From positions 9,526-26,745 of the forward strand of contig DTSJ01000315.1 in assembly GCA_012965445.1 (NCBI GenBank): DNA of 17,220 nt, in the 5' to 3' direction. How positions within the stretch are numbered: position 1 is the stretch's first letter; every line of letters begins with the position of its first letter. This DNA comes from Candidatus Hydrogenedentota bacterium. Its GTDB lineage: Bacteria; Hydrogenedentota; Hydrogenedentia; Hydrogenedentiales; GCA-2746185. The notes below the pieces were generated by a model. That model ran no database searches and was not told where the DNA came from. It saw only the letters and a program-made list of their open reading frames with translations. Of this stretch, positions 2 to 15,100 are shown piece after piece. The position numbers and the translations under genes are program-made.

Positions 2-256
2 GGTATGGTTCCTGTCAATCTAATTGACGAAATCAAAGATGTCGGCTTCGATTACGGTATGAGCGCTTATGAAGTCGCGCTCGGTATACGTTTCGGTATC
101 GGAGATGTCAAGGGTTCATCCGGTGAACGAAGTACCCGGAAACAGGTAGAGGCATTAGCCGATGATCCTGAAGGACATGACTTGGGTCAGTATCGCGGTT
201 TGACGGGAGGGCACACTGTCATACAGGAACTCGGATTCGAGTTCATTATTGAATAA
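2..256 (+). CDS. unrecognised protein, probable 3' end of a gene starting before the window
   Basis: An open frame runs into the window edge and stops with TAA at 254-256. An ATG at 5 is possible, but the frame is open to the first base and no ribosome binding site can be seen, so this is more likely the C-terminus of a longer protein. The visible 83 residues are acidic and contain no cysteine. They include segments with alternating hydrophobic residues (AYEVALGIRFGIGD, and GFEFIIE at the extreme end) that could be beta strands of an outer-membrane barrel; that reading is inference only. Only about 45 bases separate it from the next gene, so the two could be co-transcribed. I do not recognise the family. 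Confidence 0.5.
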   Translation, partial: GMVPVNLIDEIKDVGFDYGMSAYEVALGIRFGIGDVKGSSGERSTRKQVEALADDPEGHDLGQYRGLTGGHTVIQELGFEFIIE

Positions 257-301
257 CCTAACAAGTTTTAAGTTGATAAGGCGAAAGAGGGCGATTTGTG
301 T

Positions 302-2152
302 ATGGACGTGATTCAGCCGACGAAATTGGGAGACTTTTTGCCCTGGAGCAAAGCTGTTAGATTTCTGCCCGCGATTGTGACCCTTCTGCTTGCCATACTG
401 TCGGAAGCCGCAGAAGAGAGCAGACTTTCTCGTAAACCGATCCCGCTTCAGACCGAAGCGTATGCCCTGATTTCTGTCGAAGATATCGTCGATTTCGATA
501 AACTTGCTTTAAGGATAATAGAGGGATCGGAAAATCCAAATACTCCTGCGGGGCGAATCTGGAAAATATTGAGTCCCAAATTACGAAAAGACCTTGAATC
601 CCATAAAGGTCAAGCGATGACTGAATCTCAACGATTCGATCTCGTAAACGGCCTCAACGCGGTATTACGACGCAAAGACTTTTATCATAAGGAGTCGTGG
701 ACTTCCGTGGAGCTGCGCGAAGAATTGCGCGACGAATTGGAACGTGGTTTGGAACAACTCAACCCTGTCGAAGCGACTTCTCGAAACCGAGAATTGCTGC
801 GAATGTCTTTTCCGGAGCTGATTCTGGAAAGCCAAGCTCGTCCGTTTCCAAAACGCCCACGAACGCTACACATTGGAAACGATTTTTTGAACACAGGGCG
901 TCTGAGCGAAGGAATAACGATATTCACCGGAGCAGTATGGCAACCCTCCCTACTCTTGTTTGGTTCTCTTCGATCTGCGTATCAATACGTCGATACGGGA
1001 TCTTCGGAAACCGCTCCAATCGTCCATGAATTCGCAAACAGACTTGATCTCAATTTTAATCTGGCATTCACCCCCACAGAACGTCTCGTAGTAGGGTTCA
1101 GACCTATCGATCGTATAGATCGCGCATCAGGGTACCAATGGAAAAGGTTTGGTTCCGAGCGCGAAAATGAAGGGGACTTGTTTCTCGATGGCAACATCGA
1201 AACACTATACTTTGAAGGAGATTTCGGGGAACTCTTTCCGCGACTCGACAGAAACGACAAAATCGGACTGGATTTTGGCTTTGCCGTCGGGCGCCAACCC
1301 ATCTCAATACAAGAGGGGATAATGCTCAATGATAATATCGATGCGATCGGCATTACCCGAAATAACTTGCTATTTCCTGGAACGTCCAACGTGCGAATTA
1401 CGGCTCTGTGGGGATGGGGCGATATTGAAGGCGTCTTGGGTGCAAATAATATACGACGCGATAGCGGCGATTTGTTCGGAATCTTTACGTCTATTGACAC
1501 ACGAAAGGCGACGCTGGATTTCGATATCGGGTACGTTGACGATCAGGTACGTCTACTTCCGCTTCCAGGCGCCGGGACAAGCACTGATCGCCGCGACCAA
1601 TTAAATTTCGGCGCGAGCTCGGTCAGAAGATTCGGTCACTTCAATACGGCGATTCGCGTCAATCATTCCCAAAGTAAGGGTACGCGAAACCGTGCTCGGA
1701 GCGCACACGGAACGGTAATTCTCATTGAAACTTCATGGACTCCCCCTCACGGTCATGACCTCATCTACGTTAACGTTTTTGGGGGAATTAACAACTTCCA
1801 ATCCTTGGCTCGTGATCAGAGAGTCGGCGGGCCATTGGGACTAGTTGGATTACTTTTCGAGGCTCCGGGAATCGGCACGATTCCCTCTCCAATTGAGAAT
1901 TTCGTAGGGGACAGTGTCGGAGGCGCAGTTGGGTACCAGCTGTTCTTTTCGGAGACAAGAAAACAATTGACTTTCGAAATTGGCGGTAGGGAAGAAACGG
2001 AAGGCCCAGGCGGTGGTAGAATGGGTGGGTTCGTGAGTTATCAACAGGCATTGAAGAATCGCGCTGTTTGGCGCTCAGGTTTATTTTGGGTTGAAGGCGA
2101 TCAAATCGACAGTCGGTATGGGATCCGTAGTGAATTCGTGCTTCAATTTTGA
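302..2152 (+). CDS. outer-membrane beta-barrel (porin-like) protein
   Basis: The 616-residue protein starts with a basic N-terminus and a hydrophobic stretch (VRFLPAIVTLLLAIL) followed by SEAAEE, which reads as a signal peptide. A charged, probably helical periplasmic segment of about 140 residues follows. From roughly residue 190 the protein consists of alternating hydrophobic/polar strands rich in Gly, Asn and aromatic residues, with acidic loops. It ends FVLQF, the terminal aromatic expected of a BAM-inserted outer-membrane barrel. The ATG at 302 is preferred because AGAGGG at 286-291 sits at suitable spacing; an in-frame TTG at 296 is an alternative. It lies 49 bases before the reductase gene on the same strand, suggesting a link with the electron-transfer cluster. 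No MtrB-like N-terminal CxxC is present, and the substrate or partner is unknown. Confidence 0.7.
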   Translation: MDVIQPTKLGDFLPWSKAVRFLPAIVTLLLAILSEAAEESRLSRKPIPLQTEAYALISVEDIVDFDKLALRIIEGSENPNTPAGRIWKILSPKLRKDLESHKGQAMTESQRFDLVNGLNAVLRRKDFYHKESWTSVELREELRDELERGLEQLNPVEATSRNRELLRMSFPELILESQARPFPKRPRTLHIGNDFLNTGRLSEGITIFTGAVWQPSLLLFGSLRSAYQYVDTGSSETAPIVHEFANRLDLNFNLAFTPTERLVVGFRPIDRIDRASGYQWKRFGSERENEGDLFLDGNIETLYFEGDFGELFPRLDRNDKIGLDFGFAVGRQPISIQEGIMLNDNIDAIGITRNNLLFPGTSNVRITALWGWGDIEGVLGANNIRRDSGDLFGIFTSIDTRKATLDFDIGYVDDQVRLLPLPGAGTSTDRRDQLNFGASSVRRFGHFNTAIRVNHSQSKGTRNRARSAHGTVILIETSWTPPHGHDLIYVNVFGGINNFQSLARDQRVGGPLGLVGLLFEAPGIGTIPSPIENFVGDSVGGAVGYQLFFSETRKQLTFEIGGREETEGPGGGRMGGFVSYQQALKNRAVWRSGLFWVEGDQIDSRYGIRSEFVLQF

Positions 2153-2201: not shown

Positions 2202-3506
2202 ATGGCATATTTCGGGATCGTTGCAGGTTCGATTTTAGCTTGTATGGCGTTCGTCAATATGTTCGTCATATCCAGTGTCGCTTTTCGGCACTCAATAGGC
2301 AAGAGAAAGAGCTATCAGCTCGGCGCTGAAGAATGGCAACAGAGACTCAACACAGCGCAGTTACGTTTTAGGGCACTGGATTCGGAACGACGATACTGGG
2401 CTGGCAAGCGAAAATTCAATGTGGTGAAAAAGGTATTCGAGAACAGGGCAAATTCGATATGCTCTTTCTACCTTTATCCACATGATCTCAAGCCACTACC
2501 AGCCTACCGTCCTGGTCAGTTTATCGTGCTTTGTCTGAACATTCCTGATCCTGATGATCATCAAATTATCGACGAAGAAAATCGGTGCTATTCGTTATCC
2601 GACGCTTCGAATTCGGAGTACTATCGAGTCTCGATAAGGGGCGTTCCGGCACCAATGGTAAATTCAGAGATCTATCCTCCGGGTTTAGTTTCAAACTATA
2701 TGCACGAACAGGTAAACGAACAGGATCTCATCGATGTGCAAGCTCCGTCTGGCGATTTCTTTCTAGACACAAGTCAAAATCATCCCGTGGTTTTGATTGC
2801 TGGCGGAGTCGGTGTTACTCCGATATTGTCAATGTTGAAAACACTGGCGACCGAGCAGAGTTCGCGGGAAATATGGGTCCTCTATGGCGTTAGAAATTCG
2901 GATGATTTAGCCTTTGAGACCGAATTTCAAGAAAGCCTCGAAACACTGGAACAACTCCGAATCTATGTTATTTACAGCGATGTTATGCCTGACGATTGCG
3001 ATAACTCAAATGATCGAATGCAGCACGAATTTGGTTACGCAGATATCAGCAGACTACAATCAATTTTGCCGTGTAATAATTACGAGTACTACATTTGCGG
3101 ACCTGGTCCCATGATGACGGCACTTCGCCATGGTTTACTCGATTGGGGGGTTCCAGACCGCGATATAAAATACGAACAATTTACGCCAGAGCGGCCATCA
3201 CCTCAAAGCGATGCTCTTGTTTCAACAGATCAGGGACACGTTTTCAGCGTGTCGTTTTCTATTTCGAAGAAAACTTTCAAGTGGTCAAGCGAGAAAAGTA
3301 TCTACGCCTTGTCGAGAAGTAAAAAATTCAAGACCAACAGGATAAAATACTCTTGTAAGCAAGGTAAGTGCGGAAGTTGTATGACGGCAGTGAAAAGCGG
3401 CTCCGTAGAGTACCCGGATATTCAACCAAGTTTTCCGAACCTCGTCAACGGTTCATGCCTTCCATGCATTTGTGTCCCGTCGTCCGATATTCACTTGGAA
3501 GCATGA
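2202..3506 (+). CDS. membrane-anchored FAD/NAD(P) reductase with C-terminal [2Fe-2S] ferredoxin domain
   Basis: This 434-residue protein should move electrons between NAD(P)H, FAD and a [2Fe-2S] cluster. Residues 4-27 form one hydrophobic segment, followed by a basic stretch, so the redox domains are probably cytosolic. The FAD domain (about 70-190) has YRPGQF (102-107) and the flavin motif R128-C-Y130-S131. The nucleotide domain has IAGGVGVTPILSML (199-212) and CGPGPMM (299-305). The C-terminal ferredoxin domain has C385-x4-C390-x2-C393 and a fourth ligand at C422, 29 residues on, as in plant-type ferredoxins. The order matches phenol-hydroxylase, Hcp-reductase and NqrF-like enzymes in content, but with the ferredoxin at the C-terminus. 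A purine-rich GAGAGGAGGG at 2181-2190 precedes the ATG. It heads the cytochrome/Fe-S gene set and is the likely entry point for electrons; cofactor preference cannot be read from the sequence. Confidence 0.88.
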   Translation: MAYFGIVAGSILACMAFVNMFVISSVAFRHSIGKRKSYQLGAEEWQQRLNTAQLRFRALDSERRYWAGKRKFNVVKKVFENRANSICSFYLYPHDLKPLPAYRPGQFIVLCLNIPDPDDHQIIDEENRCYSLSDASNSEYYRVSIRGVPAPMVNSEIYPPGLVSNYMHEQVNEQDLIDVQAPSGDFFLDTSQNHPVVLIAGGVGVTPILSMLKTLATEQSSREIWVLYGVRNSDDLAFETEFQESLETLEQLRIYVIYSDVMPDDCDNSNDRMQHEFGYADISRLQSILPCNNYEYYICGPGPMMTALRHGLLDWGVPDRDIKYEQFTPERPSPQSDALVSTDQGHVFSVSFSISKKTFKWSSEKSIYALSRSKKFKTNRIKYSCKQGKCGSCMTAVKSGSVEYPDIQPSFPNLVNGSCLPCICVPSSDIHLEA

Positions 3507-3562
3507 TTTTGCTTTCTCGCATCAACGAATGACAACAAATTCACGATGGAAAATAGTAAGAT

Positions 3563-3592
3563 TTGCAATAGGAGAAAATCTCGTACTATACT
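3563..3592 (+). promoter_or_regulatory. possible sigma70-type promoter before the tetraheme cytochrome
   Basis: TTGCAA (3563-3568) and TATACT (3587-3592) are separated by 18 bases in the 148-base gap between the reductase and the tetraheme cytochrome. This would give the cytochrome, cNMP/Fe-S, cytochrome b and decaheme genes a start of transcription separate from the reductase. The call rests on motif match only. Confidence 0.4.
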
Positions 3593-3654
3593 ACCCAGTG
3601 CATGTATTCGATTTATCTTTAGCGATTGAATCTTGGTTAACGGGAGACAACGGA

Positions 3655-4701
3655 ATGACAGGTCGAACTGCTCAAAAATCGAATGGCGCAAGGTTCCGGT
3701 TCGCACTTATATTTCCTCTCCTTCTTCTTTCAGCCGAATATTTCGGTGCTGCCGCACAAGAATCCATTTTGACCTACGACCCCAGCACGATAACAGCCGA
3801 CGGTCCCGAAAATTGCGCAGAGTGCCATGAGCGCACGTCTGAAGCGTGGTCCGAGTCGACCCACAGTCGCACGTATGAAGAACTTCATTTGAGAGAGGAG
3901 GCGCAAGAGATACTCGAAAGGCTTGGGGAATCCGGCAGTATCCGGCGCAACAGCGAATGCGTACAATGTCATTACACGCGTCACGCGCGAGAGTCGGGAG
4001 GTCGCGCAAAAACAATCAGTGGCATATCCTGTCAACGCTGCCACGGAGGGGCGAGAGACTGGATCGTGATTCATCAGGATACCGAACAATATCCTGATCG
4101 TATGGAACGTCTGATGACCGCTACGGAAAACGGCATGCGCTCAACTCTGAAAATATATGATCTTGCTCGCAATTGCTTCCAGTGTCATACAGTTCCACGC
4201 GAAAATCTCGTAAATGTTGGTGAACACCCTGCCGGAAGTGAGATGTTTGAACTCGTCGCATATTTACAAGGCGAAGTGAGGCACAATTTCTTACCGACCC
4301 CTGCAGAGGAGACCAACAAGCCCGCGTCTACAGAAAGAAAACGTCTTCTCTACGTGATCGGTAAGTCGATTGATTTGGAATTCAGCTTACGGAGTCTCGC
4401 CCTCGCCACAGTCGACGGCATTTTCTTGGAGAGCATGATGGCTCGCGTGCAAAAGGCTTACGACGACTTAAAATTGATGGGTTTGAATGTTGCCGAGATT
4501 AACGCTATGCTCGATACGATTCCGAAGGAGGGAGATACATTAAAACTCGTCAAGAATAATAAAGAAGAATATGAGAACGCTGCTGATACAATAAGCTCTC
4601 TGGCTACGTTCTTAGAAGAAAAAAGTGTCGAATACGGAGCGGCACTGGCGCCCATAGATTCCTCATTACCGGCGGAGTTTAAGGGTGAGGTGTACAAATA
4701 A
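3655..4701 (+). CDS. exported tetraheme cytochrome c (cytochrome c554-like)
   Basis: The 348-residue product has a signal peptide (FRFALIFPLLLLSAEYFGAAA, cleavage likely before QES) and four heme c motifs: CAECH (54-58), CVQCH (102-106), CQRCH (126-130) and CFQCH (174-178). Additional histidines at 70, 78, 110, 140, 191 and 210 are candidates for distal ligands. Heme number and layout resemble the cytochrome c554 family of periplasmic electron carriers. The remaining C-terminal 130 residues are charged, look helical and hold no heme, making this longer than c554 itself. The frame is open further upstream, but ATG 3655 is chosen because GGGAGA (3642-3647) lies seven bases before it and the signal peptide follows directly. 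It is probably a periplasmic partner of the decaheme protein and cytochrome b encoded downstream. Direction of electron flow and substrate are unknown. Confidence 0.85.
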   Translation: MTGRTAQKSNGARFRFALIFPLLLLSAEYFGAAAQESILTYDPSTITADGPENCAECHERTSEAWSESTHSRTYEELHLREEAQEILERLGESGSIRRNSECVQCHYTRHARESGGRAKTISGISCQRCHGGARDWIVIHQDTEQYPDRMERLMTATENGMRSTLKIYDLARNCFQCHTVPRENLVNVGEHPAGSEMFELVAYLQGEVRHNFLPTPAEETNKPASTERKRLLYVIGKSIDLEFSLRSLALATVDGIFLESMMARVQKAYDDLKLMGLNVAEINAMLDTIPKEGDTLKLVKNNKEEYENAADTISSLATFLEEKSVEYGAALAPIDSSLPAEFKGEVYK

Positions 4702-4747: not shown

Positions 4748-6526
4748 GTGGCGACAGAAAAAGTTAGCATAACATCCTCCGGAATATTCAAACAAAAAAG
4801 CCGTTGGGCACAATCATTCGGAGAAATGTCCGAATCTGACGTAGTTGAGGTCTTGAACTGCGATCCTTTTCGGCGCATCTGTGGGGATCTTGAGAGTGCG
4901 AAGAAGGAATTGTTCAATTCATTTGGAGTATCTGTTTCCATATACGGAATCTTGAAGAACGACGCCCGATTACACACCTATCGTAAAGGCGAGATTATTG
5001 TCGGTAAAGGCGACTACGGTAACACAGCGTTTTTTCTAATAGATGGCCTGGTCAGCGCCGTCCTCTCTCCAGATTTGCCTCCTTCGGCTTTGAGACAACG
5101 TGAATCGCGCAAGAGGAACTTTCTGCGTTCATTCGCAGCCAACTTCAAGAGCAGTTTCTTGCCAACAATTCCGGAGAATCTGAAACAAACAACGAAACAG
5201 GGGGGAACCGAGGTACACGGCAGAGGTAAACTCACCGGACTACTATTTGATCAAGTGCATAATAGCGACGAATATGAAACGCATCGGATACAACCAGGCG
5301 AGATATTTGGCGAAGGTAGCGCGATTTATCGAACGCCTAGGTCAGCCAGCGTCGTTGCAAGTGAACGGAGCAGAGTACTGGAAATTCGATGGCAGGGGCT
5401 TCGAGATTTGATCGAAGCTGACGAGGAAATCGAGACACGTATAGATGATGTTTACCGAGCCCGAGCCCTCCAAAGTGCCTTGGAACACGATGAGCTGTTT
5501 CGAAACATTCCATCTGACAAATACGATCTGATTACATTTCACGCCTTTGGCAAATACGATGAATGGTCCGGGGATTATATAGATTTTTCCGCGGAAGAAA
5601 AGCATGCTGCAATTGAACAGGAAGAGATCATCGTCGAAGAAGGAGGATATCCCGACGGTGTATTCGTCGTTTGTACTGGATTTGTCCGGGTTTGCAAACG
5701 TTTTGGCATTGGGTATCAGACTCGAAGCTATCTAGGTAAAGGTATGATTTTTGGTTTATCCGAAGCAATTCACAATTGGAATGACGCAGAACATCCTGTC
5801 TCACAACAATATAGCTTGCGTGCGATCGGTTATACTCACGTGTTACATATCCCGACTCAGGTAATGGAAAAATACGTTTTGCCGGATATGGACCAAGAAA
5901 CGCAAATTGAACGCGATGACATTCAGCGAATTCCAGATACGGGTGATCAAAAATACACGTCCAACTCTACAGGAAATATGTTATATGACGATGTGTTCGA
6001 ATTCCTCGCGCAGAATCGGTATTTGAATGGAACTCAAACAATGCTTATCAATACGGACCGATGTACCCGCTGCGACGACTGCGTCAGTGCCTGCGCCGAT
6101 GCACACGATGGGAATCCAAGGTTCGTTCGGCAAGGTCCAGTCAGCAATCATGTTATGGTCGTAAACGCTTGTATGCATTGCGTTGATCCAGTCTGCATGA
6201 TCGGTTGTCCCACGGGTGCAATCCATCGCGAAAGCCAAGGTGGACAGGTTGTCATAAACACAGAAACTTGTATAGGTTGCTCCACGTGTTATAACAACTG
6301 TCCTTATGACGCGATTCGTATGGTGACAGTGCGCGACAACCGAGGTGAGTTCCGAATTACCGCTTTAGGCGCAGACGCGGGAAAGCCAGTATACAAAGCA
6401 ACAAAATGCGACTTGTGTGTCGACTTACAAGGTGGCCCAGCCTGCGTGCGTGCGTGTCCCCATGATGCAATGGCCCGAGTCAACATGCAGAACAAAGAAT
6501 CCATCGCAAAATTCGTAGCGTTGTAA
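4748..6526 (+). CDS. fusion of two cyclic-nucleotide-binding domains with a four-[4Fe-4S] ferredoxin domain
   Basis: The start is GTG, with GAGGAGA (4734-4740) seven bases upstream; the product has 592 residues and no signal peptide or membrane segment, so it is cytosolic. The first cNMP domain (about 70-240) has the phosphate-binding cassette FGEGSAIYRTPRSA (187-200), with the conserved Glu189 and Arg198 in place, and a basic insertion of about 65 residues (110-175) within the beta roll. The second cNMP domain (about 245-385) has the fold signature but its cassette (FGLSEAIHNW) lacks that Glu/Arg pair. The C-terminal domain has sixteen cysteines in four groups: 439/442/445/449, 475/478/483/487, 508/511/514/518 and 554/557/566/570. 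This is the DmsB/HybA/NrfC-type arrangement of four cubane clusters. Its stop overlaps the cytochrome b start by one base, so the two products probably interact, feeding electrons to or from the membrane under cyclic-nucleotide control. Confidence 0.9.
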   Translation: MATEKVSITSSGIFKQKSRWAQSFGEMSESDVVEVLNCDPFRRICGDLESAKKELFNSFGVSVSIYGILKNDARLHTYRKGEIIVGKGDYGNTAFFLIDGLVSAVLSPDLPPSALRQRESRKRNFLRSFAANFKSSFLPTIPENLKQTTKQGGTEVHGRGKLTGLLFDQVHNSDEYETHRIQPGEIFGEGSAIYRTPRSASVVASERSRVLEIRWQGLRDLIEADEEIETRIDDVYRARALQSALEHDELFRNIPSDKYDLITFHAFGKYDEWSGDYIDFSAEEKHAAIEQEEIIVEEGGYPDGVFVVCTGFVRVCKRFGIGYQTRSYLGKGMIFGLSEAIHNWNDAEHPVSQQYSLRAIGYTHVLHIPTQVMEKYVLPDMDQETQIERDDIQRIPDTGDQKYTSNSTGNMLYDDVFEFLAQNRYLNGTQTMLINTDRCTRCDDCVSACADAHDGNPRFVRQGPVSNHVMVVNACMHCVDPVCMIGCPTGAIHRESQGGQVVINTETCIGCSTCYNNCPYDAIRMVTVRDNRGEFRITALGADAGKPVYKATKCDLCVDLQGGPACVRACPHDAMARVNMQNKESIAKFVAL

Positions 6527-7347
6527 TGTCTCCATCTTCTCGGAATATTCGAAACGGCTTACTGGTTGGGTTCATCACATTATCGTTGGGTCTAATGTAC
6601 GTGCTCCTCGATATTATGCTTTTAGATCCCATCCTCTGGTCGGGGTGGTTGATGATTGCTATCATTCTTTTTTTAGCAGCCTACAACTTGCGAAAAAAAT
6701 TCTCCCTCCCCGTTCTCATTTCATCGCGCATCTGGCTGCGAGCGCATATCGGAGTAGCGCTCGTCGGTATTATCGTCTTTTTTTTGCATACTGAATCAAT
6801 CTGGCCCCTTGGTATAGTTGAGCGAGTCCTGATGATCTTCTGGCTAATCGCGACGATTAGTGGTTTCGTCGGCCTTTTTCTTACTCGGACTTTTCCACGG
6901 CGTCTCACCGGTAAAGGCCAAGAAGTCGTGTTCGAGGTAATCCCTGAGCGTCGCCGAATTATTCGATTAAGAGTAGAAGCGTTGGCAGAAAACTCGATCG
7001 AGAGGACGCTGTTCACGACGGTATCTTACTTTTTTACAGACCATCTTCGCGACTTTTTTTATGGCCCAAAAAATACATTGCAACATCTGTTCGGTGGAAG
7101 TCTGATGATCGACCGAATGATAAGGCAGATCGAAAACAAGAAAAAGTATTTAAACGAAACCGAAAAATCGATCTTAAGTGAAATCGCTGAGAACGCAGTC
7201 GCGAAAGACAATTTGGATTTCCACTTTTCTCTTCAACTTGTACTAAAAATCTGGCTATTTGTTCATATTCCCGTGACTTATTCGCTGATTCTGATGGCAG
7301 TCGTCCATATAATTTTCGTATACTCTTTTTCGGGAAGAGGTGTCTAA
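6526..7347 (+). CDS. small integral membrane diheme cytochrome b
   Basis: The 273-residue protein begins in the ATG of TAATG shared with the preceding stop, implying translational coupling. Hydrophobic segments lie at about 13-32, 38-54, 72-90, 97-120 and 238-268. Two of these carry histidine pairs with identical spacing, H74/H88 and H247/H261, each 14 residues apart as in cytochrome b of the bc1 complex, where such pairs from two helices ligate two stacked hemes. Between the fourth and fifth helices is a soluble segment of about 115 residues that is mostly basic and helical. I infer a heme b membrane subunit carrying electrons across the membrane or reacting with quinone, between the cytosolic Fe-S protein and the periplasmic multiheme cytochromes. 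I cannot assign a named family, and the sequence is too short for a full bc1 or NarI subunit annotation. Confidence 0.75.
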   Translation: MSPSSRNIRNGLLVGFITLSLGLMYVLLDIMLLDPILWSGWLMIAIILFLAAYNLRKKFSLPVLISSRIWLRAHIGVALVGIIVFFLHTESIWPLGIVERVLMIFWLIATISGFVGLFLTRTFPRRLTGKGQEVVFEVIPERRRIIRLRVEALAENSIERTLFTTVSYFFTDHLRDFFYGPKNTLQHLFGGSLMIDRMIRQIENKKKYLNETEKSILSEIAENAVAKDNLDFHFSLQLVLKIWLFVHIPVTYSLILMAVVHIIFVYSFSGRGV

Positions 7348-7349
7348 TC

Positions 7350-9911
7350 GTGCCGGACTCTATCGAACCAATCAAACCCAACGCCCGATATCATAGACCA
7401 CAGGAGCGCTGGGTATGTGGGCGTGCTTCCGAGGGTTGCTGTTGTCCTGCCGGCCCGAACAGAATGGGCCGCTGCCGGGGCTACGAGTGTAAACCAATAC
7501 TTGTTCGTGATCGCTGGAAATGTACACGGCCAGAACAATATGGCGGACCTTGCGACGATACCAGATCTGCTGAGTCGTCATTCGGCCCAATTGTCAAAAA
7601 TGGTATCGGCGTCTGTTGCCGCGAAACACGCTGCACGCCCGTGTTAAGCCTTCGTGCAAAACGTGGTCTAACCACCTGGTTCTTTGTGGCCTTAACCGTT
7701 TCCGCTGTCCTGATTGGACTGAACGGACCCTGGCGCGACAACTTTATTTCCCCTGGTCCACTAATTAAGGCGCACCAAGGGGCATCTATCGCCTCTGGAG
7801 AAGCGGAGTCGCTAGCCGGTTTCGAGTCGAAAAACTGCAACACCTGCCACGTCGAGATTCAATCAGGATTCGCATCCGTCCTACTTTCGGCATTCGATCA
7901 AGACGAGAACAATACCCAGAGCCGGAAGTGTTTGGATTGTCACAATGACATTGGGTCCTCGCCATTGCAAGCGCACGGAATTCCACCACAAGAATTAGAT
8001 CTACGTACAGACGTCGCGTCCTCAAGATTTCCGAGCAACGACAATTCACCGATGTTGTTCAAACTCGCCGCTTTGTTGGAAATTTCATCGGACCACGTTG
8101 ACCGACAGCTTGCTTGCGCTACTTGCCACAAGGAGCACAATGGACAATCCTTTGACTTAAGTCATCTTAGTTCAAAGCAATGTCAATCGTGCCACACGAT
8201 TCAGTTTCGAAGCTTTGAAAATGGCCACCCAGAGTTTGGACGATCGCTGTCGAACCCACGGCAAACTTATCCATACAATCGACGAACGGGCATTGTATTC
8301 GATCATGAGCGACATTTCGACAAACACTTCGAAAATATAACGGATGACTCCGTCGCGCCCCAAAGCTGCACAGTCTGCCATGCGTTTCAGTCGCCCGGGC
8401 GATTGCCCAGAACGCGAACATTCGGCGAAATGTGTGCTGCATGCCATTCGTCATCGATCACAAAGAATAAGGGCGGAGAGCTTCAATTATTCGGTATTCC
8501 TCCGTTGGACACGATGACGCTGAAAGAAGAAAATGTGGAAATCGAAAACTGGCCCAACCTGAATAACGAACGTCCTATTTCTTCTTTCATGCTGTTTTTG
8601 GTCTCCGGAGACCAAGCCTATGGTAATCGTGAATCCGAAGAGGCGTTAAAACTATTCGAGTCAGATTTGGAGATTCTAGATAATGTCTTTCTATTTGATC
8701 TGTCGTACCTCGAAGAATTTGATAATGCCTCGGATCTTGAAGCCGTTGGCAGAATTGCGCGGAGCGTTCAAAACCTAAATATCTTGCTGACCGATGATGC
8801 AGAAGAAAACAGCACATCTGTCATAGAGAGTCGATTAAGAAGTCTCGTCGACCAAGAGTCGAACATTTCGATAAATCCAAGATTACTTGTTGGGGAACTA
8901 GCTGGAACGAGTTCCTTCAATGTCGCTGCCGACATCATTGCGAAGTCGGATCTCATTTCTGCAAACGGAATGTACGTCACAGAAGACGGAAAGCTGACCA
9001 AAACAACTTGGAGTAAAATTCTGGACGAGTTGCCTCAATTGGAGCAAATGTCAACCGAATTGGCTCAACAAAACAACAATAATTACGATGAATTCATTGA
9101 TTGGTTTGAGAGCTTTGATCGTTTTCGGTCCTGGTTCGATTCCAAATTGCATGTGAAGAGTGGCCGCTGGACGTCAGCGGTAACCAAAAAAAGTATCCGT
9201 TCTTCCGATTGGAAACGCCTTATAAAGGATGTTCCAGGGTATAAGGAGTTCGAATCCGATGAAGGTGAGATAGTACCTCAGTCGGTCAATGATTTTGAAA
9301 AATGGTTCTCTTCGCAGTCCAAAGTTAAGAAATGGCTGGATTCGGTTTTCCGAATCTCAGTAAATGGTTGGTACTCTCTCGAATCGCCGCGGTCGATTTA
9401 TCATCGTCCTATAAATCATGGTGATCCGTTCCTTCGTGAATGGTTAGATTTTGCAGCAAGTCTTTACTTCAAGAACGGCGCCGCGCGCCTTCTTTTCGAT
9501 GAACTTAGCGGACGCTCGGACCCGAACACCTCACCCGGCACATGCATTAAGTGTCACAGTGTTGATTTTGATTCGAACGACAGCCGACGCGTCAGCGTAA
9601 ATTGGACGGCACCGGCTAGGCGCCGAACGTTCACGAAATTCGACCACGCCCCCCATTTGAAATTACTCGATTGCAGAAAATGTCATCGCTTTCCAGCCGA
9701 TTCATTGGATTCAGGACAACCGAGTTCGTATCTCGATAGCTATAGAACCCAATCCGGCTCAACAGAATTAGGAACCGACCCATTGAACTTCAGGAGCAAT
9801 TTCAGTCCTATAAAGATTCAGGATTGTCGGCTATGTCATTCTAGTGCAGAATCTGGAAGCAGTTGTCTAACCTGCCACAATTACCACGTCAGTGATTTTA
9901 ATTTATACTGA
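7350..9911 (+). CDS. membrane-anchored decaheme cytochrome c with cysteine-rich cytosolic head
   Basis: GTG start, two bases after the cytochrome b stop, with GGGAAGAGG (7332-7340) as ribosome binding site; 853 residues. Residues 21-95 contain eleven cysteines (23, 30, 31, 32, 42, 47, 58, 68, 89, 90, 95) in a Gly/Pro/Arg-rich setting. A basic stretch and one membrane helix (107-125) follow, placing this head in the cytosol and the remainder in the periplasm. Six CxxCH motifs (163, 194, 256, 278, 340, 362) form an N-terminal heme block. Four more (CIKCH, CRKCH, CRLCH, CLTCH) crowd the last 130 residues, the final two at 826 and 839. The roughly 350 residues between are heme-free, acidic, and contain a 38-residue repeat (579-616 and 646-683). 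It probably serves as the periplasmic electron conduit for the cluster. A metal-binding role for the head is inference. Confidence 0.85.
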   Translation: MPDSIEPIKPNARYHRPQERWVCGRASEGCCCPAGPNRMGRCRGYECKPILVRDRWKCTRPEQYGGPCDDTRSAESSFGPIVKNGIGVCCRETRCTPVLSLRAKRGLTTWFFVALTVSAVLIGLNGPWRDNFISPGPLIKAHQGASIASGEAESLAGFESKNCNTCHVEIQSGFASVLLSAFDQDENNTQSRKCLDCHNDIGSSPLQAHGIPPQELDLRTDVASSRFPSNDNSPMLFKLAALLEISSDHVDRQLACATCHKEHNGQSFDLSHLSSKQCQSCHTIQFRSFENGHPEFGRSLSNPRQTYPYNRRTGIVFDHERHFDKHFENITDDSVAPQSCTVCHAFQSPGRLPRTRTFGEMCAACHSSSITKNKGGELQLFGIPPLDTMTLKEENVEIENWPNLNNERPISSFMLFLVSGDQAYGNRESEEALKLFESDLEILDNVFLFDLSYLEEFDNASDLEAVGRIARSVQNLNILLTDDAEENSTSVIESRLRSLVDQESNISINPRLLVGELAGTSSFNVAADIIAKSDLISANGMYVTEDGKLTKTTWSKILDELPQLEQMSTELAQQNNNNYDEFIDWFESFDRFRSWFDSKLHVKSGRWTSAVTKKSIRSSDWKRLIKDVPGYKEFESDEGEIVPQSVNDFEKWFSSQSKVKKWLDSVFRISVNGWYSLESPRSIYHRPINHGDPFLREWLDFAASLYFKNGAARLLFDELSGRSDPNTSPGTCIKCHSVDFDSNDSRRVSVNWTAPARRRTFTKFDHAPHLKLLDCRKCHRFPADSLDSGQPSSYLDSYRTQSGSTELGTDPLNFRSNFSPIKIQDCRLCHSSAESGSSCLTCHNYHVSDFNLY

Positions 9912-10550: not shown

Positions 10551-11648
10551 ATGACTGTTCCAACCGAAAATGTTGATTTCGTAGTAAATAAATCGAATCT
10601 AGGTGAATGCAGATTTGTATCCTCCGGCGTGACTCCGCTTGGAGAAGGAGAAGTGCGATTTCTGGTGGAGAAGTACGCATTCACCGCAAACAATGTAACG
10701 TACGGCGTGGCCGGCGATATGCTGAAATACTGGCAGTTCTTCCCCGCAGAGGGAGATTGGGGTCGCATCCCAGTATGGGCTATTGGTAGCGTGGTAGAGT
10801 CCAAGCACGAGGACTTCGGTGACGGTGACCGTTACTACGGATACTTCCCTATGTCCACGACACTTATCGTTAAACCGGACAGGGTGAATAGCCGAGGCTT
10901 CTTCGATGGAACGCTTCATCGGCAGGAATCGGCACCCACATACAACCAATACACCAGAGTTACGCCTGAACAGGGATTTGCGCCCGCGTACGAGAACCAT
11001 TCAATGCTTTATCGCCCTTTGTTTACCACTTCGTTCCTTATCGATGACTGGCTGGCAGAGAATGAATTCTTCGGCGCAAAGACTCTCGTGTTATCCAGCG
11101 CGTCAAGCAAAACTACCTTTGGTGTGGCTCATCAAGTGGCACTACGCGGTGACGATGGATGCACGATTGTTGGTTTGACGTCGCCTGCCAACGTGGAATT
11201 CGTAGAGAGTTTGGGGTGCTACAGTAAAGTCGTAACTTACGACGATATTAAAAGCATTCCGAATGATGAACCTGTGGCCTACGTGGATATGGCGGGCAGT
11301 GCCAATGTTAACGCGGCCGTTCACCATCATTTCGCAGACCAACTAAAACTCAGTTCATTAGTTGGATTGACACACTGGCAGGAAGGCGGACAAAACGCCG
11401 ATATGCCGGGGGCGACACCACAGACGTTCTTCGCCCCAGACATAATCCAAAAACGGATTAAGGAATTGGGTGCGCAGGAATTTCAAGCAACGGTAGGTGC
11501 AGCATTGGCTAAGATGTACGACTTTGCTGACCAACATATTGAAATAGTGATACGTTCTGGTCAAGACGGTGTGGAATCCGTATACCAAGAAATGCTCGCC
11601 GGTAAAACGACGCCGAACCAAGGATTTATTGTGTCCATGAACGGTTAA
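10551..11648 (+). CDS. DUF2855 family protein (MDR dehydrogenase-like)
   Basis: The 365-residue protein resembles the DUF2855 family, which is built like medium-chain (quinone/zinc-type) oxidoreductases. The N-terminal GroES-like part includes GEGEVRFLVEKYAFTANNVTYG (split by this reader at residues 24-45) and a WGRIPVWAIGSVVES segment. The C-terminal half looks like a Rossmann fold: a strand KTLVLSSASSKT, then VGLTSPANVEFVESLGCYS with predicted strand-helix pattern, and VAYVDMAGSANV. The classical GxGxxG is not obvious, and no zinc-ligand cluster is evident. GGAGA (10540-10544) precedes the ATG by six bases. It lies 112 bases before the permease on the same strand and both sit between IS remnants. 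Substrate and reaction are unknown; a membrane anchor or signal peptide is absent, so it acts in the cytosol. Confidence 0.75.
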   Translation: MTVPTENVDFVVNKSNLGECRFVSSGVTPLGEGEVRFLVEKYAFTANNVTYGVAGDMLKYWQFFPAEGDWGRIPVWAIGSVVESKHEDFGDGDRYYGYFPMSTTLIVKPDRVNSRGFFDGTLHRQESAPTYNQYTRVTPEQGFAPAYENHSMLYRPLFTTSFLIDDWLAENEFFGAKTLVLSSASSKTTFGVAHQVALRGDDGCTIVGLTSPANVEFVESLGCYSKVVTYDDIKSIPNDEPVAYVDMAGSANVNAAVHHHFADQLKLSSLVGLTHWQEGGQNADMPGATPQTFFAPDIIQKRIKELGAQEFQATVGAALAKMYDFADQHIEIVIRSGQDGVESVYQEMLAGKTTPNQGFIVSMNG

Positions 11649-11760
11649 AGTGACCGATGTTTGATTCGGCATTGAAGCCTGATTGTTTGCATAGAGGTGG
11701 GCGGGGTAGAATCAGTCTCAATGAAATGGGCATTACCGAAGTATTTACAGGAGGGTAGTA

Positions 11761-13254
11761 GTGAGCGAGCGTCAAAAACATTCGGGTGTTTCGTATCAAG
11801 TGAAGGACGATGCGTATTTCGAGCAACGTCGACTGAAACGGTTTGCGGGTGTCTGGTCACTATGGGCCCTAGGCGTGGGAGCAGTCATTTCTGGGGATTT
11901 CTTTGGGTGGAATTTCGGGCTCGCTTCAGGTGGCTTCGGAGGCCTTCTTGTAGCCACTGTCATAATCGCTGTCATGTACGTCTGTATGTGCTTTTCCATT
12001 GCTGAAATGTCTCCCGCCTTGCCACATACCGGGGGTGCATACTCATTTGGTCGCTCAGCGATGGGGCCCTGGGGAGGGTTCATAACTGGTCTGGCGGAAA
12101 ATATTGAGTACGTACTGACGCCCGCGGTGATAGTTGTCGGTATCGGTAGTTACATGAGTTCCATTTTCAACGACCTCGTCGGCATGCAAGTCCCCGATCC
12201 TATATGGTGGTTCCTGTTCTATGCCGTCTTTCTTGGCCTCAACATCGTCGGCGTTGAAGCCACTTTCAAGTTCACGATTTTCATCACATTTCTGGCCTTG
12301 GGAATTCTCGCTGTTTTCTGGATAGGGGCGATACCGCATTTTTCCATGGAGAACGCACTTAACATGCCCCCCGAGGACGGTAATAGTGTCTGGTTTCCAA
12401 AAGGATTGAGTGGCGTGACAGCGGCATTACCATTTGCAATCTGGTTTTATCTGGCTATCGAACAATTGCCGCTTGCGGCCGAGGAATCTCATGACCCGAA
12501 GCGCGATATGCCCAAGGGATTGATGTACGGCATTCTCACGTTAATAATCGCCTCTTTTCTTACGCTTTTTCTTAACGCTGGAATCGAACCGGGCTCGGCT
12601 GAAGTTGGAACATCCAGTGACCCATTGTTCTTGGCATTCAAAACGATTTTCGGAGACGGTGTTGGCGCTTCGCTGTTGTCTCTTGTTGCGGTCGCGGGCT
12701 TGGTCGCCAGTTTTCACACCATCATCTACGCTTACGGCAGAAATATTTACAGTCTGAGTCGCGCGGGTTACTTTCCAAAATGGATGTCCCTCACGCATCC
12801 GACCCGAAAAACGCCCCATGTTGCTCTTATTATTGGAGCAGTAATCGGATACATCGTGGCACTGCTTATACATTACAGCAACCGGATTTTTGGAGACGTT
12901 CCCGTTGGAGGCGTACTGTTGAACATGGCTGTCTTTGGAGCGGTAATCGCTTACATCATGCAGATGGCATCTTTTGTGTTGCTTCGCAAGAATCTTCCCG
13001 ATATCGAAAGGCCGTATGTCAGTCCTTTAGGCACTGCGGGCGCTTGGATTGCGGGTATCATTGCTTCTGTCACTTTGGTCTTCCTTTTTTGGAACGAAGA
13101 ATACAGACTGGGGGTATACGGCTGCGCAGTCTGGTTCATCGCCGGACTCGTCTATTTCGCCGTTCACGGCCGCCATCATATGGTTCTTTCTCCCGAAGAA
13201 GAATTTGCACTGAGCCAAGAGCACGAACATAGGTCAGGTGACGTCACCCGTTGA
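11761..13254 (+). CDS. eat: APC-superfamily ethanolamine permease-like transporter
   Basis: The 497-residue product starts at GTG with a strong AGGAGGG (11749-11755) five bases upstream. About twelve hydrophobic segments follow a charged N-terminus. The block GVGAVISGDFFGWNFGLASG and, shortly after, ALPHTGGAYSFGRSAMGPWG and EYVLTPAVIVVGIG closely resemble the ethanolamine permease group (Eat) of the amino acid/polyamine/organocation superfamily. That group imports ethanolamine by proton symport or exchange. The central EQLPLAAEESHDPKRDMPKG segment is the usual APC cytoplasmic loop. No eut ammonia-lyase genes lie in the window, so the substrate could be another small amine or amino acid. A perfect 12-bp palindrome, GGTGACGTCACC (13237-13248), overlaps the last codons. 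The DUF2855-type gene upstream may be co-transcribed. Confidence 0.82.
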   Translation: MSERQKHSGVSYQVKDDAYFEQRRLKRFAGVWSLWALGVGAVISGDFFGWNFGLASGGFGGLLVATVIIAVMYVCMCFSIAEMSPALPHTGGAYSFGRSAMGPWGGFITGLAENIEYVLTPAVIVVGIGSYMSSIFNDLVGMQVPDPIWWFLFYAVFLGLNIVGVEATFKFTIFITFLALGILAVFWIGAIPHFSMENALNMPPEDGNSVWFPKGLSGVTAALPFAIWFYLAIEQLPLAAEESHDPKRDMPKGLMYGILTLIIASFLTLFLNAGIEPGSAEVGTSSDPLFLAFKTIFGDGVGASLLSLVAVAGLVASFHTIIYAYGRNIYSLSRAGYFPKWMSLTHPTRKTPHVALIIGAVIGYIVALLIHYSNRIFGDVPVGGVLLNMAVFGAVIAYIMQMASFVLLRKNLPDIERPYVSPLGTAGAWIAGIIASVTLVFLFWNEEYRLGVYGCAVWFIAGLVYFAVHGRHHMVLSPEEEFALSQEHEHRSGDVTR

Positions 13255-13399
13255 CCGTTCGATTTCCTACCGTACCATTGAGATGGCCCTAGCTCTAGAC
13301 TCTTTCCGTCGCTTCGTGCTGGAGGCGGATATTCTTTGCTACGATTTCCGTAGAATTTCGGGATTTTCCTGTCATGCCCGTAGATAGTGTGTTGAGAAT
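13255..13399. other. non-coding stretch between permease and IS110 remnant
   Basis: No gene is visible. A weak stem CTACG-ATTTC-CGTAG (13339-13353) lacks a T tract and is not a convincing terminator. Part of this stretch may be the 3' flank of the IS110-type element, whose ends cannot be placed because this family has no long terminal inverted repeats. Confidence 0.4.
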
Positions 13400-13660
13400 T
13401 CAAGCATATTGTAGTCCAATGTGATTTTGATTGAATGGTTTTCCACTAATGAGTATGGCGCGCATAGTTACAAGGAGCTTCCGCATAATGGCGGCCAAAG
13501 CGACTCTGGGTTTCTTGTCGCTTTGGAGTAGGCGTTGGTAGGTTGTCCTGAAGGGTGTATCGCTACGTATAGCACTCAGGGCGGCGAGGTAGAGGCATCG
13601 GCGGACGCGTGGGTTGCCCTGTTTGTGTGTACCGTCATGCAAAGTGGGACATATGGGCAC
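13400..13660 (-). pseudogene. IS110-family transposase C-terminal fragment
   Basis: The 86-residue frame contains KQGNPRVRRCLYLAALSAIR, then FRTTYQRLLQSDKKPRVALA and AIMRKLLVTMRAIL. This is the conserved C-terminal (Transposase_20) region of IS110/IS116-type DEDD recombinases, with the QGNxRxRRxLYxAAL motif. The N-terminal catalytic half is missing: homology breaks off at about 13660, right beside the miniature element at 13669. The full protein would be about 320-400 residues. The simplest reading is an IS110-type element truncated by a later insertion or deletion. It is not expected to be active. Confidence 0.75.
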
Positions 13661-13668
13661 GGGTATAC

Positions 13669-13768
13669 TGTAATGCTCTATCCATAGTTGGCGGTGTTTA
13701 GAAACGCTACGAACGGATTCTCAGTATAATTTCTCGGATCGAATGTCCACTATGGATAGAGCATTACG
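13669..13768. mobile_element. miniature inverted-repeat element derived from the IS3-type ends
   Basis: The 100-bp unit begins GTAATGCTCTATCCATAG (13670-13687) and ends with its exact inverse, CTATGGATAGAGCATTAC (13750-13767). The right end is near-identical over about 50 bases to the IS3-remnant right end at 10203-10250, including an ATAATT.CTCGGAT block and the GTCCAC stretch. The left end differs after the repeat (TTGGCGG rather than TGGAC), as expected of a left IS end. It therefore has both ends of an IS and no transposase, like a MITE or an internally deleted copy. No target-site duplication is visible. Confidence 0.65.
13745..13767 (-). repeat. 23-bp IS-end inverted repeat, right copy
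   Basis: This is the exact reverse complement of 10204-10226. It also forms the right arm of the miniature element; its 18 inner-to-outer bases pair with 13670-13687. Confidence 0.9.
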
Positions 13769-13812
13769 TTCGCGCCCGACAACATCAAAAACACCCTCAC
13801 CCCAAACATTAG

Positions 13813-14910
13813 TCAGTTTTCGATATGCTCCAGCGATTCACCGCAGGCAGCAAGGGCCAGCACCGCGTAAGACGTTCCGGCATGGCTGATGTAGTGTCTT
13901 CCGTCACGCCTGGGCGAGCGCGTATACCAACGACCACTGATCCGCTGATTGGCTTTGAGCCAGGCGATCGCTTTTTGAATACGAGGGTCATCGGCATCGA
14001 CTCCGGCTTTACGCAATACATACGTTGCGAAACCCGTCGCGTATCCGTCGCTGGATACGACGTCTTGCTCCTTTCCGTCGGAGCGCTTCCAGCCGCCTAT
14101 TTCGATGAGGTTCCATCCCCCGTCCGGCTTCTGCTGTGCAAAAAGTTTAGTAACGATCTCTTGCTGAACGTCAGACACGAGGATTCCGTCGTAAGTAGTT
14201 GATGTCAGCAGTAGCATGGCCATTTGATGCAAATTCTCCGGCGGATGTTCATCTAGGTATTTACGTAGCTTCCGCATGCCGTCTTGGGCTGTTGGCGTCT
14301 GAGTGTATTCCACTGGGGCCATTCCCAGGGCGTAGGCCACCAGCGTAACTCCAAAATGGTTATCGACTTCGAATGGCGGCCAGTTGCATTTTAGCCACTC
14401 CTCCCAGCAGCCCTCCTCGCTTTGATGCGCCCAAACGTAATCGAATGCTTTGATCGTAATCGGGTCCAACTTGCCATTGGTCTTGACATCGCTGATCGCT
14501 AAAAAGGCGGTAGTGGATACGATTCCTTGAACCGCACCCCAGTCGCCGTCGGGAGGCTCCTTGTCGACGACGTATCGTTTCAGATAGTTGCGGGAAAAAT
14601 CACGGGTGGATTCGTATGCCGTACCGCGAGGGTTAATCTCGGCACGGGACGCCAAATACAACCCGTTCGTGTGGCACGTCACGCATTGCTTGCGTTGTTG
14701 CCAATCCAGGGCTGCATTGTCGAGGTAGTTAACGGCTTTTTGAAATGAGAAGGTATCCGCAATGGGCTCGCTTGCGGAGATTGGCGTTGGCCGCGTGGCG
14801 GAGTCAAGTGGAGTTGTATCCTCGCCACTGGCAAGGCCGATGGAGGCGATCAACACTGCCACAATTATCAAAGTTGAAAAGCAAATCCTGAGGCGAATCC
14901 GATAGTCCAC
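13813..14910 (-). CDS. exported terpenoid-cyclase-like alpha-toroid protein with one heme c motif
   Basis: The start is GTG at 14910 with AGGAG six bases upstream on the - strand. The 365-residue product begins with a signal peptide (ICFSTLIIVAVLIASIGLAS, then GED). A single CVTCH (76-80) follows, then repeats of the squalene-hopene-cyclase/prenyltransferase type: DGDWGAVQG (121-129), SEEGCWEEW (164-172), QKPDGGWN (260-267) and SGRWYTRS (325-332), each followed by a hydrophobic helix (such as TGFATYVLRKAG and GTSYAVLALAACG). These are the alpha/alpha toroid repeats. The DxDD catalytic acid of class II cyclases is not visible and the protein is about half the length of a true squalene-hopene cyclase (around 630 or more). 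I therefore do not assign cyclase activity. Such secreted toroid proteins with CxxCH are something I associate with Planctomycetota; function is unknown. It is transcribed divergently from the GGT-family gene. Confidence 0.78.
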   Translation of the reverse strand: MDYRIRLRICFSTLIIVAVLIASIGLASGEDTTPLDSATRPTPISASEPIADTFSFQKAVNYLDNAALDWQQRKQCVTCHTNGLYLASRAEINPRGTAYESTRDFSRNYLKRYVVDKEPPDGDWGAVQGIVSTTAFLAISDVKTNGKLDPITIKAFDYVWAHQSEEGCWEEWLKCNWPPFEVDNHFGVTLVAYALGMAPVEYTQTPTAQDGMRKLRKYLDEHPPENLHQMAMLLLTSTTYDGILVSDVQQEIVTKLFAQQKPDGGWNLIEIGGWKRSDGKEQDVVSSDGYATGFATYVLRKAGVDADDPRIQKAIAWLKANQRISGRWYTRSPRRDGRHYISHAGTSYAVLALAACGESLEHIEN

Positions 14911-15010
14911 ATGCGACTCCTACTCTTTCGTGAGTACAGAAAAGTGACGATGACCAAGTGGTAATGGTAACACAAAAGTCGAATCGTACCCCGTAGGGTC
15001 AGATTCGATT

Positions 15011-15039
15011 TTGAAACCGCCGACGGTTGTCTCTATTAT
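15011..15039 (+). promoter_or_regulatory. sigma70-type promoter of the GGT-family gene
   Basis: TTGAAA (15011-15016), a 17-base spacer and TATTAT (15034-15039) give a near-consensus promoter. Transcription would begin near 15046, leaving about 55 bases of leader before the GTG at 15101. This argues against translation from the TTG at 15011, which is the -35 hexamer itself. Confidence 0.6.
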
Positions 15040-15100
15040 AGAAAGGAAGTTCCAGGTTCAAGAATCCAGATGGAAGATCTGGGAAGGGAGAGAACGCATC

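Follow-up and report, generated by a model that had tools for sequence, protein, structure and literature searches.

The 17,220-nucleotide stretch of DNA analysed here, called the window, comes from a Candidatus Hydrogenedentota bacterium and carries a gene for a protein in which two cyclic-nucleotide-binding domains (CNBD1 and CNBD2) are joined to a ferredoxin with four cluster motifs. We propose that this protein is, with high probability, a subunit of a membrane redox complex and that it most likely acts there as the cytoplasmic relay between NAD(P)H and periplasmic cytochromes, because its neighbours are a predicted cytochrome b, a decaheme cytochrome c and an NAD(P)H-type oxidoreductase and because of fusions found in Acidobacteriota. 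Judged from its sequence, CNBD1 rather likely binds a cyclic nucleotide, and the chance that such binding would gate electron flow falls a little short of even. The explanation as a whole, a relay subunit with a cyclic-nucleotide-binding regulatory module and electron flow under the control of a ligand, we regard as evenly balanced. The gene, which starts with GTG and has GAGGAG 8 nt upstream, and its parts are as follows.

4748..6526, + strand: CNBD1-CNBD2-4x[4Fe-4S] protein, 592 residues (the main gene)
5078..5272, + strand: extra stretch inside CNBD1, about residues 111-175, seen from alignment length, with a low-confidence predicted helix at residues 125-137
5306..5347, + strand: phosphate-binding cassette of CNBD1, residues 187-200 (E189 codon 5312-5314, R198 codon 5339-5341)
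5474..5920, + strand: CNBD2, about residues 243-391, cassette degenerate
6035..6487, + strand: four-cluster ferredoxin, about residues 430-580, with 16 Cys between residues 439 and 570 (Pfam and profile scans, alignment)

The first-pass annotation of this DNA had read the gene as two cyclic-nucleotide domains, the first with E189 and R198 and the second with neither, followed by a four-cluster ferredoxin in place of a DNA-binding or kinase domain, and the domain scan and the alignment bear this out. PF00027 matches the protein over three stretches with 85.2 bits against a cut-off of 27.5. The Pfam scan found no helix-turn-helix (HTH), DNA-binding or kinase domain, the ferredoxin taking the C-terminal place of the HTH, and no kinase family in the six scanned cluster neighbours. 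An alignment of 129 sequences was made from the window protein, the 120 homologues listed and eight loci, and in it each of the 16 Cys of the four cluster motifs is present in 128-129 sequences. The four-cluster profiles that match are HycB3 (E 8.5e-17) and, both below their NCBIfam cut-offs, HydN (7.5e-17) and DmsB (2.9e-16). Ferredoxins of the DmsB/HycB/HydN type share this four-cluster pattern and serve a molybdenum enzyme or a hydrogenase, whereas among the window genes scanned there is no such partner enzyme, no adjoining molybdopterin or hydrogenase catalytic subunit, and no DMSO-type or kinase-type partner. A free ferredoxin and a transcription regulator are both ruled out by the domain content and the gene order. 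A protein that is 99% identical to that of the window exists in Candidatus Hydrogenedentota.

The cassette of CNBD1 is strongly conserved. E189 is Glu in 127/129 sequences and R198 is Arg in 127/129, the exceptions being P0019 (R to S), L006 (E to A), L008 (R to Q) and the truncated P0039. The first-pass annotation had held that frequent loss of E189 or R198 among homologues would refute it. This check did not go against it; in a larger set 177 of 188 aligned family sequences, that of the window included, retain both residues. The other 11 have EQ (8), EV (1), ES (1) and AR (1) at these positions, and nine of them belong to one Acidobacteriota clade. The larger set excludes sequences shorter than 450 aa, such as P0039, and leaves out five of 193 unique sequences, namely, L007 and L039-L042; by eye, L007, L040, L041 and L042 retain E and R, and the genome of L039, which is also that of L109, has R to H. 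Among 31 diverse members E189 is invariant and R198 is at least 90% conserved. A conserved Glu/Arg cassette of this kind is the one that holds a cyclic phosphate. The position that follows R198 is Thr in 92/129 and Ser in 15/129 sequences, and a hydroxyl right after the cassette Arg accompanies cGMP use in PKG and HCN. The corresponding positions in CNBD2 are L337 and Q354 in the window protein, and across the alignment they are Leu in 108/129 and Gln in 119/129 sequences.

In the predicted structure the CNBD1 cassette has a helix at residues 189-194, and CNBD1 and CNBD2 each superpose singly on domains that bind cAMP or cGMP. The best Foldseek matches of the protein are PKA and PKG (top 6rsx, E 1.6e-14). 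The extra stretch is a constant feature of CNBD1, residues 108-176 being 62-74 positions long in 128/129 sequences, and it is modelled with low confidence, the block means of the predicted local distance difference test (pLDDT) being 33-60 across residues 111-160.

The neighbouring genes provide the context that the first-pass annotation had missed. They are given below in order along the window.

2..256, + strand: pentaheme c554-like cytochrome, of which the window, because of its edge, has only the C-terminus (blastp against complete pentaheme proteins from relatives: L090, 85% over 26 aa, E 3e-12; L118, 48% over 56 aa, E 4e-10)
296..2152, + strand: probable outer-membrane beta-barrel, porin-like, called from sequence character with no Pfam match over cut-off, start uncertain
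2202..3506, + strand: NAD(P)H oxidoreductase with an N-terminal hydrophobic segment, FAD/NAD domains and a C-terminal [2Fe-2S] domain (NAD_binding_1 1.4e-18, Fer2 2.4e-6)
3472..4701, + strand: tetraheme cytochrome c554-like protein, probably exported (Cytochrome_C554 1.9e-14, four CxxCH; true start probably downstream of 3472)
6526..7347, + strand: membrane protein, predicted di-heme cytochrome b (invariant pairs H74/H88 and H247/H261)
7350..9911, + strand: decaheme cytochrome c with a Cys-rich N-terminal region and a probable anchor in the inner membrane (10 CxxCH, Cytochrome_C7 2.5e-11)

The stop codon of the main gene overlaps the start of the membrane-protein gene (TAATG) and the decaheme gene begins 2 nt past the latter; thus, the three genes are laid out as one operon. 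The membrane protein belongs to an unannotated family in which H74/H88 and H247/H261 form two H-x13-H pairs that are invariant in 48/48 aligned sequences, the window included, and that sit on hydrophobic helices of the predicted structure. This pattern is characteristic of di-heme b cytochromes, and on these sequence features we consider the family a candidate for a new di-heme cytochrome b family. The best-supported Pfam matches in a scan of 16 members are weak (DUF4405 in nine, best E 0.0011; Ni_hydr_CYTB in six, best 0.042), a profile search of PDB sequences gave nothing relevant, the VIA list for this fold is headed by helical sensor domains, and no PDB fold gave a convincing match. In four Acidobacteriota genomes (L039-L042) the CNBD-CNBD-ferredoxin and the cytochrome b are fused in single open reading frames (ORFs) of 818-826 aa, as judged by a model match for L109, which is in the same genome as L039, and in the remaining ones by eye and from the presence of the two H-x13-H pairs. 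These fusions argue for a physical association of the CNBD-ferredoxin with the cytochrome b. The N-terminus of the decaheme protein (window 7350-7720) looks cytoplasmic, with 11 Cys ahead of its first heme motif; this Cys-rich region is usual in the branch of the window and is missing from the Acidobacteriota relatives listed. The genes at 10551-16942, namely, those for a DUF2855 protein, an ethanolamine-type permease, a squalene-cyclase-like protein (- strand) and a gamma-glutamyltranspeptidase, look unrelated.

The same arrangement recurs in relatives. The search models derive from the window and from loci within L001-L008, and the pentaheme model from L090, L112, L116 and L118, so matches at these loci hold by construction. 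In a first set of 48 loci (eight records and 40 genomes) the membrane protein lies downstream on the same strand in all 48 and a match to the decaheme model does so in 46, L107 and L109 having other multiheme genes; c554-like genes are found in 36 loci, pentaheme genes in 18 and barrel-like genes in 20. The latter two are what was seen of a possible porin-cytochrome conduit, which would pair a beta-barrel with a multiheme cytochrome at the outer membrane. In a second set of 21 loci of the TrxR type (L126-L146) the membrane protein is found in 19 and the decaheme gene in 18, and L129 and L142 showed neither. The cluster occurs in no fewer than five groups at phylum or class level, namely, Hydrogenedentota, Verrucomicrobiota, Acidobacteriota, Alphaproteobacteria and Gammaproteobacteria. 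At E <=1e-30, the matching genomes numbered 12/240 in the Verrucomicrobiota group, 24/247 in the Acidobacteriota group, 44/289 in the Alphaproteobacteria group and 15/274 in the Gammaproteobacteria group, these samples having been drawn around seed loci, seeds included, and named after the seeds, with at most 4-5 candidates scored per genome. Past the decaheme gene of the TrxR-type locus L119 (1-6149) are genes for an HbpS-like protein, a 627-aa protein without a Pfam match and another multiheme cytochrome, and genes like these were seen by eye in L107, L108 and L121. On the Sphingobium megaplasmid a 3,990-base gene annotated as a multiheme c-type cytochrome (L126, 14284-18273) lies near the TrxR-type cluster.

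The CNBD-ferredoxin occurs with NAD(P)H-type modules of three unrelated kinds: an FNR-type protein with [2Fe-2S], as in the window, a fused TrxR-like flavin domain, and a NuoEF/NuoG-like module. Among the 48 loci 28 have the FNR-like gene, seven the fused TrxR-like domain, two the fused NuoG-like segment and 11 none of these; in three of the 11 (L098, L102, L109) a TrxR-like gene that is not fused lies at a distance of 3.2-3.6 kb. The CNBD-ferredoxin of L105 and L106 has a NuoG-like iron-sulfur segment fused in front, and the gene immediately upstream codes for a NuoE-NuoF protein (L105 9691-11370, L106 5554-7224; Nuo51 FMN domain E 2.5e-40 and 4.3e-39), so that by sequence a complex-I-type NADH module is attached to the cytochrome system. 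The convergence of three unrelated modules on one CNBD-ferredoxin suggests that NAD(P)H is either the electron source of the complex or its product. A module is present at 34/37 loci with an intact CNBD1 and at 1/8 of those that have lost the arginine, or 3/8 if unfused TrxR-like genes at a distance of 3.4-3.6 kb are counted; this count leaves out four of 49 loci (one AR, three unscored), and it amounts to one evolutionary contrast because the eight arginine-lost loci are essentially one clade.

As judged from the conserved gene order and the fusions, electrons would pass from the NAD(P)H oxidoreductase, which in the window is a separate FAD/[2Fe-2S] protein, to the four [4Fe-4S] clusters of the CNBD-ferredoxin, from there across the membrane through the predicted di-heme cytochrome b to the decaheme cytochrome c in the periplasm, and then to the tetraheme and pentaheme cytochromes and the beta-barrel, towards the outer membrane. 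The tandem cyclic-nucleotide-binding unit would be the regulatory module of the complex. Binding of a 3',5'-cyclic nucleotide, or a close analogue, to CNBD1 would alter the docking of the relay on the cytochrome b or on the donor and thereby turn electron flow up or down, and CNBD2 in the branch of the window may now be a structural or coupling domain.

How the two cassettes came to differ was read from a midpoint-rooted FastTree tree of 96 representatives, in which cassettes were called intact or degenerate by a simple pattern; by eye, the calls for L080 and L083 (degenerate), L078 (intact) and, in the Acidobacteriota clade, L030 (CNBD2-intact) are doubtful. In the half of the tree with the TrxR- and NuoG-fused members, together with the short L019 and L032, both cassettes are mostly intact. 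In the half with the window CNBD1 is intact and CNBD2 degenerate, and outside the Acidobacteriota clade single CNBD1 losses occur only in P0019 and L006. On this tree the state described by the first-pass annotation, one competent and one degenerate domain, is probably a derived state of the branch of the window, and loss in both domains occurs too.

Genes that could make or break down a cyclic nucleotide adjoin the cluster in some relatives. In L119 the genes for a CHASE2-class III cyclase (PF00211 E 2.6e-20), a TPR protein and a FecR protein run co-directionally into the CNBD gene, overlapping or no more than 15 bp apart when the longest ORFs are taken, and form one apparent operon. In L126, on pMSHV of Sphingobium herbicidovorans, a gene for an Rv0805/SpdA-like metallophosphoesterase begins 20 bp past the decaheme gene, and a relative lies downstream on the same strand in L130 and L134. 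Because it scores 132.6 and 78 bits against curated NCBIfam cut-offs of 400 and 225, it is a relative and not a proven cyclic-nucleotide phosphodiesterase. A single cyclase query and a single phosphodiesterase query, run against 85 sequences (84 loci and the window, at least two loci being covered twice), gave 4/85 linked loci, all four in the TrxR branch. In L147 FecR and cyclase genes are nearby on the other strand. By eye, among the matches listed, 5/39 and 4/36 genomes have a cyclase on the contig of the cluster at no more than about 20 kb, where a rough guess from genome sizes, which is not a formal null, would expect about 3/75 by chance. In the TrxR-type loci L119 and L123 the decaheme protein has an FHA domain at its N-terminus, which is a second sign of regulation.

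Several observations weigh against ligand control or leave it less well founded. In the branch of the window no cyclase or phosphodiesterase link was seen, and in a single-sequence search any cyclase that turned up nearby lay on the opposite strand at a distance of 8.8-11.6 kb. The presence of a cyclase in the genome was rejected as evidence; class III cyclases occur in 37/39 carriers (35/36 of those of the TrxR type) and in 31/39 non-carriers, and being nearly as common in the latter their presence alone says little. P0019 and L006 each lack one of the two CNBD1 cassette residues. The nine-sequence Acidobacteriota clade (support 0.96) has replaced the CNBD1 arginine by Gln or Val and has kept the complex, so a canonical CNBD1 pocket is not needed everywhere. 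The first-pass interpretation, which was that cAMP, cGMP or another ligand would gate electron flow directly, is supported in part; the domain content and the retention of E189 and R198 stand, and the retention does not extend to this clade. When superposed as a tandem, the PKA and PKG structures fit with a root-mean-square deviation (rmsd) of at least 9. The ferredoxin is modelled weakly, with pLDDT block means of 39-81 that are mostly below 60 from residue 471, and therefore the CNBD-ferredoxin interface cannot be read from the model. The fold of the cytochrome b partner has no Foldseek match at E <=0.001.

Some of these observations would be expected if the CNBDs were a scaffold that holds the ferredoxin to the membrane complex with no ligand control, E189 and R198 being kept for structure. 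CNBD2 is degenerate throughout the branch of the window, where no cyclase or phosphodiesterase link was seen, the Acidobacteriota clade dispenses with the arginine, and the extra stretch of CNBD1 could be a docking element. We nevertheless consider a scaffold unlikely, because just the two phosphate-contacting positions are kept in CNBD1 and not in CNBD2 among sequences 32-60% identical to the window protein, which fold alone hardly explains, and because the TrxR branch mostly retains both pockets. A sensor of heme, Fe-S or gas like CooA, FNR or DNR, with redox state as the signal, is very improbable since across the 31 diverse members the first 400 residues contain no Cys or His that, like E189 or R198, is invariant or conserved to 90%. 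That the same complex instead takes electrons from outside, as in lithotrophy, and reduces NAD(P)+ under regulation by the CNBDs is unlikely to about the same degree as the scaffold. Gene content alone does not fix the direction of flow, nor does the sequence reveal it, and multiheme and barrel genes are found in both kinds of system, but no substrate-specific oxidase was recognised among the cluster proteins scanned.

Quite unlikely, given that the conserved Glu/Arg cassette is of the cyclic-phosphate-holding kind, is that CNBD1 serves as an activation site for NADPH or some other nucleotide. It would then resemble HoxI of the NAD+-reducing [NiFe] hydrogenase SH of Cupriavidus necator, likewise a CNBD-type module and activation site on an NAD(P)H-linked redox enzyme, and the complex of the window type has NAD(P)H modules too. 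According to the available part of PMC12319191, HoxI is a CNBD-type subunit on the diaphorase and is thought to bind NADP, and according to that of PMC3702609, NADPH activated only the enzyme form having HoxI. By analogy HoxI is a precedent for a CNBD-type subunit on a redox enzyme; it differs, however, in being a separate small subunit of a soluble enzyme, with NADPH as activator and without a fused ferredoxin, cytochrome b or multiheme cytochrome.

Returning to the relay with a regulatory cyclic-nucleotide module, its parts are known from other systems in other combinations. The regulatory subunits of PKA, and PKG, have tandem domains and a similar cassette, but their output is a kinase and the relative placing of their two domains is unlike that in the window protein, as the rmsd above indicates. 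The CNBD of the M. loti cyclic-nucleotide-gated (CNG) channel serves an ion channel, whereas the flow here would be of electrons, and in Rv0998 (Pat) the output is an acetyltransferase. Complex I shares its NADH module (NuoE, NuoF, NuoG) with L105 and L106, where it goes with the trio of CNBD-ferredoxin, cytochrome b and decaheme cytochrome; complex I has a quinone-reducing arm, whereas the output in L105 and L106 is cytochrome b and decaheme c, and the window has the FNR-type module. CbcL, ImcH and CymA, which serve extracellular electron transfer at the inner membrane, are quinol oxidisers, and we know of no CNBD or NAD(P)H module in them. Like the complex proposed for the window, they feed periplasmic and outer-membrane multiheme cytochromes, according to the available part of PMC9012536. 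That part makes no mention of cNMP or cyclic nucleotide, and the available part of PMC10553843 makes none of cNMP, cyclic nucleotide or CRP. A literature search of titles and abstract openings gave, among the entries listed, no description of the CNBD-ferredoxin fusion or of the cluster.

Cyclic-nucleotide control of bacterial respiration is known mainly via transcription. Here the sensor domain is built into the electron-carrying protein itself, and its partners point to periplasmic or extracellular electron transfer. We tentatively suggest a cyclic-nucleotide-gated transmembrane electron conduit, an electron counterpart of the CNG channel with a new di-heme cytochrome b family as its membrane part. 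In such a conduit a second messenger would exert post-translational control over a conserved NAD(P)H/multiheme-cytochrome complex, beside which some relatives carry cyclase or phosphodiesterase-like genes. The TrxR branch has a cultured member, Sphingobium herbicidovorans MH, in which the CNBD-ferredoxin gene is B6S01_RS18455 and the phosphodiesterase-like gene B6S01_RS18440. If the pocket works, electron export could be switched within seconds.
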